A stretch of 28,950 nucleotides of DNA, from positions 241,669 through 270,618 of the forward strand of contig WELB01000117.1 of NCBI GenBank assembly GCA_009602725.1, written 5' to 3'. This document shows positions 2,118 through 14,864 of the stretch, one piece after another. The position numbers and the translations under genes are program-made. The stretch's first letter is position 1, and each line of letters begins with the position of its first letter. A model generated the notes under the pieces. It did not search any database and had not been told where the DNA came from. It was given only the letters and a program-made list of their open reading frames with translations. The DNA comes from Spirogloea muscicola. Its lineage: Eukaryota; Streptophyta; Zygnematophyceae; Spirogloeales; Spirogloeaceae.

Positions 2118-5100
2118 TCATTGAGCTGATTTGCCCTCCTCGGACAGCGGGTCTGAGGTGCTGAAGATGTCGGCGCAGCCTGACCAGTCACCACGCTCGC
2201 GTGCCTCCCAGTAACCGCCCTGGTATGTGAACGTGCCGTGCGGGCCCTGCTTCTTGAACCACCGCGGCTCCCACCCTGCCTCCTGCGCCTTCCTCGCCTG
2301 CCCAAGGCACACCAATGCTTATGCGCGACAATGATCAGCCTGTGAAGGTGTGTACAGCTTTTCTAGAAATTCTTGCATAGACAATACTTCTGTAGTATCC
2401 ATATACAAACCACTTTAACGACATGGCAACTGAATGCAGCTGGGTGAGATGGGCTGCTCACAACGCGCTGCCGTTGCTCCAAGCGCAGCTTCTCACTGTT
2501 GGCCTCGTCAAACTGCCCGTTTTCCAGCAGCCGCTGGTCTGGCCGCAGCCTGGAATCAGTTGGGGGCAACTTCTCCTGCAACAAAGCCAACATGCAACCC
2601 TTAGACAAATACTCACAAGCAAACGAGTTTGCAAAGTAAGTGTGTGCCTGTAACCTTGAACCAATCAGGGGAATGAGATCTTACCCTCAAGCCAGGGAGG
2701 ATCTCATTAAGGGTGATGGCAAAGGACGTGAGGCCGTAGCGCATGGGATACTTGGAAGGTGGGGAGCGCTGCCACACAAGCACCGCATCCTCCATACTCT
2801 CTACATCCGTAGCCTTGGCCTTCTTCCCCAAATCTCCCATCACGTAATATACGCAGTGGTCCCACTTGCCCAGGATTGCTGCCACGTTCTCGCCCCGTGC
2901 ATTCACCACGTGCCCTTGCACCTGCCAAAGTACGATATATCAGGCAATAATTCTTCCATCAAGTGCATTCATCATGTGCCCTTGCACCTGTCAAAGTACG
3001 AAAATCAGGCACTAATTCAATCAGAAATAAGACACAAAGGCCCTCCTCTGTGAGGAGCTCTCCTGCATCTATGCAGTGTGCTATCAATCTGCAGCACAGA
3101 AGAAGCTGCAGTGATTGCAAGAAAGTCACTATGACCTGACGAGGGTTCCGGTCCATGAGCGACTGCTCTTTGAATTTAAGGCTGGCTGAGAAGCCGCGGT
3201 TGCCGTTGATGCGCATGGTGCCATAGTGGTCCGAGTACAGCTTTCCCAAGATAATGTTGTAGATCGAAGTTGTCACCTAAGACAAGACACTAGGTTCTGG
3301 CTTAGATATCAAGAATGACGAAGTTGCCTGCAAGAAGGTCAGCAATCAATACAGACTCTTCTCAAACTTCAGCATTGACCTGCCTGCATTAAGCAAGATT
3401 GACGGCATAGCGGCAAAGCTCCAAGTGCTGGGAACCCACCTTGCTCCACTCAAAGCGCTCGCCGTCAATAAACTCCAGCGTAAGAACACCGACAGGGTCG
3501 AGCTGGATGGAGCGGCCCCAGAACTTGCTCTTGAGGTTGCAGTCGCCCCAGAACTTCCACTCCACGCCTTGGCATGCGCACGCCACAATTGTGGGGTGGT
3601 GGCTGACCTGCAGGCACATGTTTGGGGCACAGATGGTGTCATTGCACCTTGTCGATATGATCAAGCGTCAAACTGTTGTAACTTCTGCACAGCAAATTAT
3701 GTACAAGGATCTGTAGATCAAGTAGCTAGCTCAGCAGCAGCCTCAGATCTTGAGGCAGGCAAGAAGCAGTGTCATGAAGCCACAATGGAGATGCCCCCCA
3801 AGCCCACCTTCTCGGAGAAGAAGCGTAGGCCCTTGTCTGGCCAATCAGCCTCATAGGTCTCGCCAAGCAGTGGGTTGAATGGTTTGTTGGACCGACCCTC
3901 GGTGCAGGCGTAGCTCGAGATGGCGAATGCAGCGACATGGATTGCACGCATCAGCGGGTTGCCCTGCGCACCCGCAGCACACCATAAGACTGCCGCATGC
4001 AAGATGGAGGCCACCACAGGCAACAAGCTTCTAGCTCATGAAGTCTATCTCAGTGCACGTCTGGCTGATTCCCATCAAGATCTTAATACCCTTTTACCTG
4101 GTCAGATGCAACCTCAGACCAGAGCAGATGACACATCACGAAGAGGTCCTTCGGATCAACTATAGCAGCGTAATGCTCAAAAGCAGCCAGTGGCAGCAGC
4201 TGTGCGTCAGCACAACCGCCGTGGCGGTCGCCATTTCATGGGCAGGGTGCTCAGCACTCACCCGGCGGCCGTACTCGGCTGCGCGGTCAAGGAGCCATGA
4301 GTACTCAAGCTCCTCGAAGCAGCGCTGGAGCGTCGAGATGGGCTCGTTGAAATAGACGGGCAGGCAGACCTTGGACAGGTCCTTGCCAACATTGTCTTTG
4401 ATGATGGACCACAGGCTCACGCTCTTCTCCTTGAACATGGCATCTGGCAGCTTCTCACGACGCTTCACATATGGGTACGTGAACCCAACCTTCTCCATGT
4501 CCAGCGCCGCAATCTCCTCTGGCGTCGGGATGTGCAAGTCCTCCAGCGCCGCAGCCGCCTTGCCAGGTGCGGGTGCTGTCGTGCCGGCAGGCAACAGTTG
4601 GCCCGACGCAGGTGGGCCTGTGGCGACGGGCGGTGGTGTCTTGGTCCTGTACTTCGCGACGTTGGTGGCGCCAGACATGCTGCGCGTGAGGGTAGCGGGC
4701 GACGCAAAAAACTCCTCCGACGTCTCAAAGAAGACATCATTGTCGTCGCCACGGCCGCGGTTGTCATCGTCGTCATCGCTGCCCAGGCCGCCCTCCTCTG
4801 AGTCGCCATGGTGGTAGTCCTCGTCGTCGTCCGTCTCGCTGCCGCCTGCGGCTGGGCATGCATGCTTCCATCAGACTGACGACTGAGCAAGAGAGCCATG
4901 TTGTCAGCATTACCAAGACGATAGGGCCGCTGATCATTGACAGCAGAGATGCACACTGGCCCACTGGCGCACCAGACGGATGATGAGAGCGGCGAGCACA
5001 CGTGCTGGTGCCGCGGTCTCACCCATCTCGCGGGTCAGTGGCCCACTCGAGTTGTTGTGGCCGCTGTCCTGCCTGACAGCCCCGGCGGCGAGCCGAGATG

Positions 5101-6538
5101 CGTCTGCATCATCGATCATCCGCGTCTCCAGCTCCACCTTGTCAGCCTGCCGTCCCCCCGGTCCCGCACATCAAATCCACCCTTTCTGAGCTAAGCCCAC
5201 CGGAGTTCCTAAAGGACTCAATTATGACCGTTGAAAACACATGACACGATAGGATTCATCAAAGCATCACATTTAACAGCACACATGACCGTGCACACTA
5301 GTGTGCATTCTGTACAGAAATATACATAGGCCTGATTGTGTTTTCTCCAGATTTTCACCTCCAGCTCATTCAGGCGCTCGACGAGGCGGTGGCGCTTCTG
5401 CTTGTGGTCGCGCAGCTCTGCCTGCATCTCCGCCACGAGGTCGTGCACGATGCCCTCGCAGTCGGCGATGAGGTCCTCAACACACCCGGCCTCGGCCATG
5501 CGCTGCCGCAGGCGCTCCGTCGAGACGGGCAGGTCATCTGCTGGCAGCAGCATCGCCAGCGGATTGCCAGCCAGGTCCTTGGCCACCTGCCGCAGCGCAG
5601 CCGCCACCACCGCCGCCGCCCCTCCATTAGTGCATGACTCCATCGGTGCATAAAATCGTTAACTAGCATAAGGAGCAGAATGCCAAATAGTTGCAAGCGG
5701 CATGCTAACAGGGATAGCCGATGGAGACAGAGGCGGCAGCGGTGGCCATCGGCTCTCACAGATAGCGCCTCGAGCCAGGCCATGCGGTCCTCCTTGCACT
5801 CTGCACGGAGGTGCAGAGTCCGCGTGCCCGAGTCCACGTAGAACTTCTTCTCGTCGGCATTGCTCGGGCGCAGCGTCGACACCTGCAGCGACAGCTCCCC
5901 GAAGAGCTTGCGGCGCGCCGGCGAGCCCACCGGCGTGTGGCCGCTGCCGCCAGGGCCGCCGCCAGCGCGCTCCTTCTTGAGCAGCCGCCGCACCTCGTCG
6001 CCAATCAGCATCAGCTCTGGCCGACGCTGCAGCTCGGCGATGATGGAGATCTTGGTCGGGCCCTCCACTTTCATGTACGAAAGCACGCCCTGCGGTGCAG
6101 CGCATTGACGGCAGCACGTCAGCTAGCCAACGCGGCATGCGCAGAAAGCTGCTTGACCAGGCTCTGCAACCAAGCCACTGGCTGGCCCCTCAGCTGGCAA
6201 GCGACTCAAATCAGTCGCCCATCAAGTCGAGGCAAGCCCACATGAGCATTCCTGCAGTCCTCAAGCAATCCTGAAGAAAGAGAGTCCATTGAGTGCCAGG
6301 AGGAGGAGAAGTAGAGAGAGGTGGGGCAACAGAGGAGGGAGAGAGCGCGCCGCCATGCCTGCTCGAGGATGAAGTAGCGCGGGCGCCAGCCGCGGCCATA
6401 GTTGACCCACTTGTGCAGCACGCCGGCGACCAGCGGGCCCGTCGGCAGCGCCGCACCCTCTCCGGACAGCCGCCGGTTGCTGCTGCCGCGCGGCGTTCCG
6501 GCCTGCTCGGCCAGCGGGCTCCACCGCGGGCTTGCCAT
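2118..6538 (-). CDS. Oxysterol-binding protein-related protein, plant ORP1/2 type (PH + ORD), 11 exons
   Basis: Exons on the minus strand: 6359-6538, 5760-6089, 5359-5637, 5023-5137, 4262-4845, 3808-3963, 3440-3607, 3136-3276, 2685-2921, 2462-2575, 2118-2297; all phases close, giving 827 residues. Residues about 36-170 form a PH domain ([15 protein letters not shown], then [11 protein letters not shown]). Exon 3 is helical and coiled-coil-like. Residues about 305-350 are acidic. The rest is the lipid-binding [19 protein letters not shown], the signature EKVSHHP at 547-553 (usually EQVSHHP), and the C-terminal [12 protein letters not shown] block. The family moves sterols and PI4P between membranes at ER contact sites; the PH domain targets phosphoinositide-rich membranes. 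The first intron has a GC donor (CAG|GCATGG). ATG 6538 is the first usable start. Exon 3's acceptor (TGGAG before 5637) is the least certain junction. Confidence 0.93.
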
Positions 6539-7064: not shown

Positions 7065-7119
7065 CCGCCTTTCGCCGCCGCCTTACACGCCGCAGCTCTC
7101 CCTCGGCAAAGCCTCCACC

Positions 7120-7123
7120 TCGC

Positions 7124-7158
<35 letters not shown>

Positions 7159-7170
7159 GCCGCCGCCAGC
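7120..7170. repeat. GCC trinucleotide repeat
   Basis: Near-perfect GCC repeats, with an interruption by ACC near 7155, just downstream of the pyrimidine tract. It is simple-sequence DNA. Similar GGC/GCC runs occur at 14904-14941 and at the right window edge. Confidence 0.9.
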
Positions 7171-7690
7171 TCGCTCCGACGTCCAGGTTAGCCTGTCTGA
7201 TCCTCCAGTGCACCAGCTCAGTCGTCCGTACTTGACTGTCGTTTTCGACTGTGCACAGCCGTGGGGAACTAACGTCTCGCAGTCACCTTAGTCACCTTGC
7301 AATTGGGCTTTCTTTATTGTAGGCCCGCTTTTGCACTAGCTTTTGCCTGTATTGGCTGGATCGGCTCCGTGTGCACCGCGCGCCTTCCTTCACTTGCTGG
7401 TTAGAGGTTATCTAGTGCCCACTCACAGAAGTCACGCAGAGTGGTTTCGTCCTTTTTGCACCCTCCGGCCCTTCATTTGCGGTTCTAGGTTCCGCATGGT
7501 AAGCAGGAGCACATTCATGTCACAAAGTTGTGGCCCGCTGGCCGCCGTAGGAGTGGAGCATACTTGTGGCTGGTACTAGCTAACACCAATATAAATCAAG
7601 AACTTGGTCTACCACAGTCGCACAATGTGTGAGGCAGTGCCTCCAAAAGCACCTATGCCGAAGAGGCTGACAAGAAGTCAGCTGGACCAG

Positions 7691-8312
7691 CTACCTGGTG
7701 AAAGGCGAAACGCGCTGCTTGGCCTCGTCCATGAAACCTCCTGCAAGCACACCAAGGGACTGGCACCAATGGTACCCCGTGGAAGGGTGCGCCATTGTCT
7801 CCACAGCACACTTCGCAAGGAATAACTTCTCCTTGTGCCGCCTCTCCATTGCGGCTATCTCAGCGAGGTCCTCCTCAGTCAAAGGATGGTCTGCATCACA
7901 CTTCACTATCACTATCGCTGTCGCTGTCATTCGTCCAATACCCTCCTGTGGCGTAGAGAACGTCCAGATTTGCTTTCGTGGCAGCGCCAATCTGCTGCTT
8001 GATGCAAGCAGGGTCAGAGGCCGTTATAAGAAGGTCCGTGTCGCGACTTGTGCAGACAGAGCCGTGGACTTCTTCAAGCGTGAGACAGTAGGAGATTGGA
8101 ATGCGCTTTCTGTTCTCTCTCTCCAGAATCTCCACTAGTCTCAGCAGCACAACTGCAAGCATGCCAACTCCGTGAAGACAAAGCCCTCGCACGACAAGGT
8201 TTGCACCGTCACCGTACTGCGCATGCATTGGTTGAGGCAGTGGGCTCGCCAACATTACCCAGCCGGCAACGCCCACTGCCTTAAACACCAGATTGTTCCT
8301 AGGTTTTCCCAC
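7691..8312 (-). CDS. Unrecognised minus-strand coding-like region, structure unresolved
   Basis: Two overlapping minus-strand open frames look like parts of one protein. The upstream one (8312-7896) contains GANLVVRGLCLHGVGMLAVV, then RLVEILEREN and TLEEVHGSV, and ends in a DSDSDSDS tract. The downstream one (to the stop at 7691) contains DADHPLTEEDLAEIAAMERR and HKEKLFLAKCAVETM, and ends FMDEAKQRV. An intron with a GTAATG donor and CGCAG acceptor is possible inside the first part. Joining the two requires an intron I cannot place or a one-base slip in the GACAGC/GATAGT repeat near 7915. The VVRG...VEIL stretch faintly resembles an Alba-type fold, but I would not name it. Exact exons are unknown. 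Confidence 0.35.
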
Positions 8313-8640
8313 TCTGGCCAGAACACCTTACCGACCTACGGCTTTGTCCCCATCCCCTCTTCCACCCCCACCCAGAACCTTAATGCTGTAGCCACCATAT
8401 CATAAAATGCTCATGTGCTAGTGCAACTGTGGTGAACCTTTTTGTAAATATTGAGGACAAGCGTGGTCCTGTACGCGCATGAGTGTTATGATGAAGGGGT
8501 CCCACGGAGAATCGTGAACTCACCTCACGCCTTTGTACTGAAGAATCTGACGTATTTGGCATCACCTTAAACGTTTCCACCTGCCAAATGTCAGGTTCTT
8601 GCATGGTCGCATTCGGCCTGGCCGTAACACTGGCCTATTT
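8313..8640. other. Interval with no recognisable feature
   Basis: Between the unresolved minus-strand region and the left arm of the retroelement inverted repeat. Short frames on both strands show no motif, and I see nothing functional here. Confidence 0.5.
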
Positions 8641-9099
8641 GGCCCGACCGCGACCTCTTGTATCGACCGGCTGAAACCCCAACCTGAATTTGCACGCTAT
8701 CCTGCCGCTGCTGACGCGCCGCCGCAACCGCCGCCACTGGTGCCGAGCGCTGAAGCGAGTCTCCCCGTCGCTCTTGTCGCAAAGCTCTCCTCGCAATCAA
8801 CATGGCTGGTCAAGGCCAAGACGCCACAAATCACATGGTATCAGAGGAGGCCTCGAGGGCCTGCGGCAGTTTGACGGCACCAACTGGACCATCTGGAAGG
8901 AGATGGTGGAGCTGGCCGTTGGACCACCTTGGTCTACCGGCCATCCTACAAGGGACAGAGGCAGAGCCAGTGTCGCAGGAGGACGGCGCGGATGCTTCTG
9001 GAGCGATGCAGAAGTACAGGCGGAGGCAGACTCGCTGCCTCTACATTCGGAAGTGCAGCCTCAACCGCTGCACAGCTGAAGCTGGTGGTTGGAAAGAAG
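8641..9099 (+). mobile_element. Copia-type LTR retroelement 5' fragment, left arm (plus orientation)
   Basis: Reads 5' to 3' on the plus strand as leader or LTR end, a tRNA-Met-like primer binding site (TGGTATCAGAGG, 8836-8847, next to a CA dinucleotide), then the start of gag. Translation of 8850-9099 gives GGLEGLRQFDGTNWTIWKEM, typical of the gag N-terminal region of Copia elements (F-D-G-x-N-W-x-x-W-K). The copy is broken: relative to the other arm it has small indels, so the gag frame is lost after WKEMVELAV. It stops at GGAAAGAAG (9099). It is an incomplete, non-autonomous fragment and pairs as an inverted repeat with 9169-9632. Confidence 0.8.
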
Positions 9100-9632
9100 G
9101 TGCTGATGCTTATCTGCGTGGTCTTTCTGTACTCCTTGCACAGTGTCGCCCACGACTCTGTGGGTGTCTTCTTTCCAATCACCAGCCTCAGCTTTGCAGC
9201 GTTGAGGCTGCACACCAGAATGTAGAGGCAGCGAGTCTGCCTCCGCCTGTACTTCTGCATCATCGCTTCGGAAGCATCCGCGTCGTCATCCTGCGACACC
9301 GGCTCTGCCTCTGTCCCCTGTAGGATGGCCAGTAGGCCAAGGTGGTCCACGGCCAGCTCCACCATCTCCTTCCAGATGGTCCAATTGATGCCGTCAAAGC
9401 GCCGCAGGCCCTCGAGGCCTCCTCTGATGCCATGTCGATTCGTGGCGTCTTGGCCTTAGCCAGCCATGCTGATCGCGAGGAGAGCTCTGCGACGAGAGCG
9501 ACGGGGGAGACCCGCTTCAGCGCTCGTCAGCGGGCGGCGGTGGTGGCGGCGGCGCGTCGGCAGAGGCAGGACAGCGGGCAGTCTCAGGTTGGGGTCTCAG
9601 CCGGTGACGATACAAGAGGTCGCGATCGGCCC
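9100..9632 (-). mobile_element. Copia-type LTR retroelement 5' fragment, right arm plus loop (minus orientation)
   Basis: The minus strand carries the same sequence as the left arm and extends about 69 nt further, into the centre. From 9432 it reads TGGCATCAGAGG (a one-base variant of the Copia primer binding site), then gag: LEGLRRFDGINWTIWKEMVE, LAVDHLGLLAILQGTEAEPV, CLYILVCSLNAAKLRLVIGK, and ESWATLCKEYRK in the loop. This frame is intact to the loop, so it is the better preserved copy. An upstream ATG in the same frame (about 9468) is followed after two codons by a TAA where the left copy has CAA. Sequence similar to LTR/leader continues to 9632 and may extend to 9890. Confidence 0.8.
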
Positions 9633-9903
9633 AGATAGAGAAGTGCGCGCCCATAGAAAAGAGGGGCTGGCAAAGCCAGCCCAAAAACGAATGGACAATG
9701 TCCAAAGCCTAAGAAAGAGGAGCCGGAGAAAGGACTACACTACAGAACACTGCAGAACACAGAAACGATGCAGAGGAAAGCTCAGTACCCACGAGTGAGC
9801 AACATCAGGTCTGAGTAGCTCGCTGCAGGGAAAGAGGCACTCTGCCGAGACCCAGAGGCGGCGGCCATAGCACGGCCTGCGCGCGTATGNAATTTGGCAG
9901 CAT
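9633..9903. other. Probable retroelement LTR/leader flank and an ambiguous base
   Basis: On the minus strand this leads into the right retroelement arm and may be its LTR. It includes a perfect 8-bp stem, GGGCTGGC/GCCAGCCC, at 9664-9682. A single N at 9890 lies 14 bases from the end of the PFP gene model, so the join here may be imperfect. No gene is seen. Confidence 0.45.

Positions 9904-14864
<4,961 letters not shown>

Follow-up and report, generated by a model that had tools for sequence, protein, structure and literature searches.

Introduction

Mu killer of maize is a partial inverted duplication of a transposon with the potential to form hairpin RNA. It originates from the DNA transposon MuDR, is reported to silence MuDR and has been proposed to be transcribed from a flanking gene (PMC3440606). 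Long arms lying close together also characterize the eukaryotic long inverted repeats collected in LIRBase (cited in PMC12273906). A further related case are 5'-inverted LINE-1 copies (PMC2912911), in which an inverted segment is made during reverse transcription. For the alga Spirogloea muscicola, a published study lists three DCL2/3/4 copies and a genome triplication (PMC7994812).

Here, we analyzed a stretch of 28,950 nucleotides from this alga (the window), which is part of contig C117 in a 153-Mb assembly of 471 contigs; this assembly served as the genome for all comparisons, and C-numbers denote its contigs. The window contains a hairpin that is, like Mu killer, a long inverted repeat of part of a mobile element. 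Unlike Mu killer, it consists of the left end of a Copia element, is known here from sequence alone and has arms that are drifting apart. In contrast to the LIRBase repeats, its arms can be assigned to a single retrotransposon family and, at a related locus on C71, to one target duplication. Elsewhere in the window, we noticed two exon-like frames, one for an oxysterol-binding protein (PF01237, 4160-4870, minus strand) and one for an FAD-linked oxidase (PF02913, 25787-26101, plus strand).

Results

A BLAST alignment of positions 8635-9099 with the reverse complement of 9168-9638 yielded 419 identical columns out of 473 with 10 gaps (E 7e-172), and a repeat search of the window recovered the same arms as the ungapped pairs I1-I5, which are 86-95% complementary. 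Overall, the arms are about 89% complementary, and a separate alignment with 423 of 475 columns alike sets their difference at 11%. This bears out the earlier note on this DNA, which had described inverted copies lying tail to tail with arms of about 460 bp; the loop, given there as 69 nt, measures 68 nt. The predicted RNA fold of 8641-9632 reached -910 kcal/mol, whereas 20 shuffled sequences averaged -421.6 (sd 10.5). The longest perfect stem of the hairpin measures 44 bp.

Both arms contain a primer-site-like motif, as previously noticed: TGGTATCAGAGG on the left and TGGCATCAGAGG, a single base off, on the minus strand of the right arm. The frame of the right copy (8946-9455, minus strand) matches Pfam Retrotran_gag_2 (PF14223), which, together with the alignment to a full-length element on C18, supports the suggested Copia gag/leader identity, and it crosses the loop as had been claimed. 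At the junction of the copies (9099/9101), about 5 nt (AAGAA) are common to both sides. Beyond the earlier note, we found that the left copy extends outward to 8582 and overlaps by 18 bp with a 59-bp segment that derives, in antisense orientation, from the 3' junction of the element (Table 1); in the C18 element, a stem is predicted at the junction of the internal end and the 3' LTR. The outer LTR end of the right copy is severed by the insertion of a young-looking repeat, whose positions 9700-9889 have 37 further genome matches over all 190 bases (96-100%, the C49 block copy included). Past this repeat insertion, an outer end (element 1-83, 72%) was found in C49 at L029 5369-5440. An ORF beside the repeat on C49 (L029 5323-6000) matched no Pfam family.

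Table 1. Features in and around the hairpin (window positions; element coordinates refer to the C18 stretch)
Feature	Position	Strand	Evidence or remark
Block shared with C49:213892-216663 (minus); its place in the window is very probably wrong	7118..9889	+	2772/2772 identical
Element internal end and first bases of 3' LTR, antisense, element 5213 to 5271	8541..8599	-	85% to element
Left copy: LTR (from about LTR base 14), motif 8836-8847, gag start; element 14 to 541	8582..9099	+	80.6% to C18 element; arm 8635-9099
Loop, 68 nt, gag of right copy	9100..9167		BLAST alignment
Right copy: element 78 to 613 (window order 613 to 78), motif 9421-9432, gag frame	9101..9638	-	79.3% to C18; PF14223 E 1.5e-8
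End of high-copy interspersed repeat, interrupts right LTR	9639..9889		Genome matches
Single N, scaffold join	9890..9890		Other sequence joined beyond

Full-length family members, which the earlier note had proposed to look for elsewhere in the genome, are present on C18 and C106, with direct LTRs 98.2% and 98.9% alike and, in the flanks that were read, 5-bp target duplications (GGGCT and CCTCC, respectively). These ordinary Ty1/copia copies show what is common to the family: a 279-bp LTR, the primer-site-like motif, gag and the 5-bp target duplication. In the element coordinates, which are those of a 5519-base C18 stretch including three flank bases, the LTR begins with TGTTGA, ends with CAAGA and is followed from base 280 by TGGTATCAGAGG, which, by analogy with other Copia elements, is a putative primer-binding site. 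The gag match is stronger in C106 (PF14223, E 2.4e-23) than in the window; in addition, rve is present in a C106 ORF and RVT_2 (E 2.7e-66) further along C18, an order that combines two copies. The window copy, by comparison, ends in gag, lacks the integrase and copia-type reverse transcriptase domains, and has inverted LTR parts instead of two direct LTRs with a 5-bp target duplication. It is therefore a derivative of a Ty1/copia element and not a complete member.

Inverted pieces also occur in longer copies. The full-length C106 copy (L037 5243-7078) carries its middle part a second time in inverted orientation (element 3698 to 1881), and the 28 matches of a pol search included inverted pieces in C106 and C121. 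Another near-perfect palindrome is located near the C18 element (L036 13-1837, C18:253512-255336; 97.4% over 1825 columns).

A gag search with element bases 283-905 gave at least 20 matches in the genome. Among the matches listed, those on C18, C106, C2, C121 and C99 have one orientation each, and opposite-facing pairs occur on C71, C129, C19, C36, C132, C117 and C49, with a 45-bp remnant on C39. C36, C132 and C19 were merged into one insertion because flanks and junction are common to all three, and C117, C49 and C39 were also counted as one; C99 was classified from the match alone and C2 was read to base 4494. On this basis, tail-to-tail 5' ends are found in four of nine independent gag-bearing insertions among the matches listed, namely C71, C129, C36/C132/C19 and C117/C49. 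Unlike C18 and C106, these foldbacks consist of two 5' ends without a 3' half, so that both outer tips are U3. In C129, about 866 bp with another palindrome inside separate the copies; this spacer palindrome (L032 5301-5769, 85.4%) is directly followed by sequence like window 9637-9710. A mobile palindromic unit was considered for the common junction of C36, C132 and C19 and rejected, since the flanks are also shared (pieces 73-90.5% alike), and the three loci look like duplicated segments. In a viral-contig search, six stretches matched a pattern and none was confirmed as a relative.

The key case is the foldback on C71, the youngest-looking of the four. Its palindrome of 1963 bp runs from LTR tip to LTR tip with 1922 of 1964 aligned columns identical, the tips are intact at both ends (TGTTGAAAGG...CCTTTCAACA), and a perfect 5-bp target duplication, ATACT, is present on both sides. 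In the centre, the CAG run of gag turns into CTG. C71 thus combines two outward U3 tips with one target duplication, as expected of an integrated palindromic cDNA, and this arrangement points to a single integration of such a molecule instead of two independent insertions.

Comparison of the arms, with the closest relative judged among the copies compared only, identified same-locus arms as closest relatives in three of the four foldbacks. The window arms are mutually closest (88.3% in the LTR and 92.8% in gag versus 85.5% and 89.6% for the next best), as are the arms of C71 (about 99% versus 93%) and C129 (89.7% versus 82%). In C36, C132 and C19, where one side ends at about element base 314, corresponding arms between loci (86.1% and 84.7% alike) are closer than same-locus arms. 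Similarly, the C39 arms are 78.0% alike versus 85.5% and 83.9% to their C49 counterparts. Both patterns fit folds that are older than the duplications. Over 542 columns of the C36/C132/C19 trio, same-locus arms are 81.5% and cross-locus arms 80.4% alike (difference 1.1 points, bootstrap 0.2-2.0), and 7 of 32 columns varying in both arms still pair in all three loci, a raw count without a null. These values suggest a small excess of same-locus arm identity and no strong maintenance of pairing.

The window fold seems to predate the duplication separating C49 from C39. The window arms differ less (11%) than the flank of C49 and C39 (15.5%), a gap that slow change, some constraint or conversion of one arm by the other might explain. 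Such a gene conversion may be suspected because the LTR part of the window arms is 88.3% alike versus 83.9-85.5% for the C49/C39 counterparts; in a four-sequence comparison, the counterpart arms were favoured in 1859 of 2000 bootstraps, but on 147 columns with only three parsimony-informative sites (two for, one for the cross arrangement). In the C49 copy, the right tip lies beyond the repeat insertion and the left tip is replaced, and no target duplication is readable.

The block containing the hairpin is bounded by a CCG repeat on its left and the single N on its right. Beyond this N, window 9891-13500 is identical to C344:87015-90624, hence also present twice in the assembly, and 86% like C191. 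Upstream of the join point, over about 80 bases compared by eye, C344 resembles its diverged duplicate C191 and differs from the window. The left part of the block (7118-7592) is identical in C117, C49 and C132, and each copy begins in the same CCG repeat; the C132 copy stops at a single N, and this segment resembles a contig end that the assembler used more than once. In C49, an N is reached eight bases beyond the CCG edge. C39 follows the C49 region in the same order, with aligned pieces that are 76-89% alike and reach 84.5% over 1752 columns in the longest of them, and the C39 duplicate has the outer parts of both arms and lacks the inner gag part.

Because of the identity to C49, the edges in a CCG repeat and an N, and the different sequence upstream in C344 and C191, the block was very probably placed in the window by an assembly error. 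Its C49 context is supported by the diverged duplicate region on C39. The sequence to the right of the hairpin is consequently not its real neighbour, and the same probably holds for the left-hand sequence. Movement of the unit between C117 and C49 was considered for the 100% copy and rejected in favour of assembly duplication. The earlier note had cautioned that the inverted structure might be created by the assembly: this doubt does not extend to the fold, which is genuine because the diverged duplicates C36/C132/C19 and C49/C39 share such folds, and it was very probably warranted for the place in the window.

With regard to small-RNA machinery, we found 19 Piwi-domain matches on C41, C54, C5 and C188; six RNase III matches occur in pairs on C67, C277 and C9. 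The three Dicer-like loci and the triplicated segments fit the DCL copies and the triplication reported for S. muscicola (PMC7994812). Eight of nine in-frame stops inside the Piwi-domain matches are TAG and one is TGA; they are perhaps intron edges. Of the window 21-mers that are not CAG-rich, 24 of 1030 have a perfect match in C18, a number that rises to 171 when up to two mismatches are allowed; the corresponding C71 counts are 356 and 774 of 1791. The presence of Dicer- and Argonaute-type domains in the genome makes a silencing role testable, best on C71.

Discussion

The hairpin is probably an old, decaying palindromic Copia insertion, for which strand switching in reverse transcription would have produced a palindromic cDNA that was inserted by integrase. 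This best reading rests chiefly on C71 and on the recurrence of the foldbacks. The growing plus strand, comprising LTR, primer site and gag, would leave its template within gag at a short inverted match, which in C71 would be the CAG repeat. Synthesis would continue on a plus strand, either its own or that of a co-packaged genome, back to the LTR tip, and the linear palindrome would present two integrase-ready U3 ends for insertion. The window copy was later cut by the repeat insertion, and it appears in the window very probably via a scaffold error only. The short sequence common to both sides of the window, C71 and C36 junctions, counted without a chance control, speaks for a strand switch, and the junction common to C36, C132 and C19 and the fold common to C49 and C39 speak for a genuine structure. 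Several observations count against this origin. The window copy has no readable target duplication, with its left tip replaced by the 8541-8599 piece and its right tip beyond the repeat; C71 alone has both tips and a duplication, and five bases would agree by chance in 1 of 1024 cases; and the window turn (541|613) lies outside the CAG repeat. Arms are not closest relatives in C36, C132 and C19, which duplication of old arms would explain, and in C39, too, each arm is closer to its C49 counterpart than to the other arm. A fold older than the C49/C39 split also predicts that the window arms differ about as much as the flank (15.5%), compared to the 11% observed.

Inverted segments of LINE-1 copies arise by twin priming. 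Those inversions are target-primed; here, an LTR element is concerned and both halves have the same 5' end. A literature search for palindromic or inverted retroelement copies, with partial coverage and thus no proof of novelty, found no LTR-gag palindrome with a target duplication among the papers listed.

Two left-end cDNA fragments could also have been end-joined tail to tail with microhomology before integration, which differs from strand switching in the joining step only. The short common sequence at three junctions agrees with it; it has no separate support and gives no reason to expect that the turn of C71 lies in the CAG repeat, and we regard it as a possible but minor contender. Somewhat less plausible is that two related copies inserted independently and in opposite orientation and that deletions later trimmed them. 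The divergence of the window arms and the lack of a readable target duplication at the window copy would suit such a history, but the arms are mutually nearest among the copies compared, C71 has a single target duplication, and matching deletions would have to be assumed for every one of the four tail-to-tail cases, whose joins all lie in gag or beside it. It is very improbable that the fold itself arose from a chimeric read or from faulty assembly: the block is very probably misplaced, and a palindromic read could in principle account for the C71 palindrome, whose arms are about 98% alike, but the window arms differ by 11%, and diverged duplicates have one common junction (C36/C132/C19) or another common fold (C49/C39).

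A natural hairpin silencing locus, in which transcripts of the palindrome would yield double-stranded RNA and Dicer siRNAs against the Copia family, concerns function and is compatible with an origin from palindromic cDNA. In favour of it, the predicted duplex is near-complete, the longest perfect stem reaches 44 bp, Piwi domains are matched on four contigs and pairs of RNase III domains on three, and the inward-pointing LTRs suggest that transcription from an LTR promoter would enter the hairpin. The 1.1-point excess of same-locus arm identity, the pairing retained by all three loci in 7 of 32 columns that vary in both arms (a count without a null) and the lower divergence of the window arms than of the C49/C39 flank would also suit such a role. 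However, this excess is small, the C39 duplicate lacks the inner arms, few window 21-mers (24 of 1030) match C18 perfectly, and the LTR pairs of C18 and C106 (98-99% alike) suggest that insertions continued long after the fold had formed. From these sequence features, a silencing role of the window copy is unproven and unlikely.

The present case shows that a hairpin adjoining genes in a draft assembly may have been put there by mistake. We tentatively propose, as a speculative extension of the palindromic-cDNA origin, that this Copia family might habitually turn back in reverse transcription and insert LTR-gag/gag-LTR palindromes. With both LTRs pointing inward, each young insertion would then carry its own promoters for hairpin RNA, so that self-silencing loci would arise as a by-product of copying, with C71 as a young example and the window copy as a fossil. 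If palindromic cDNAs integrate regularly, LTR elements could directly give rise to hairpin RNAs of their own, a possibility relevant to the question of how a new element first comes to be silenced.
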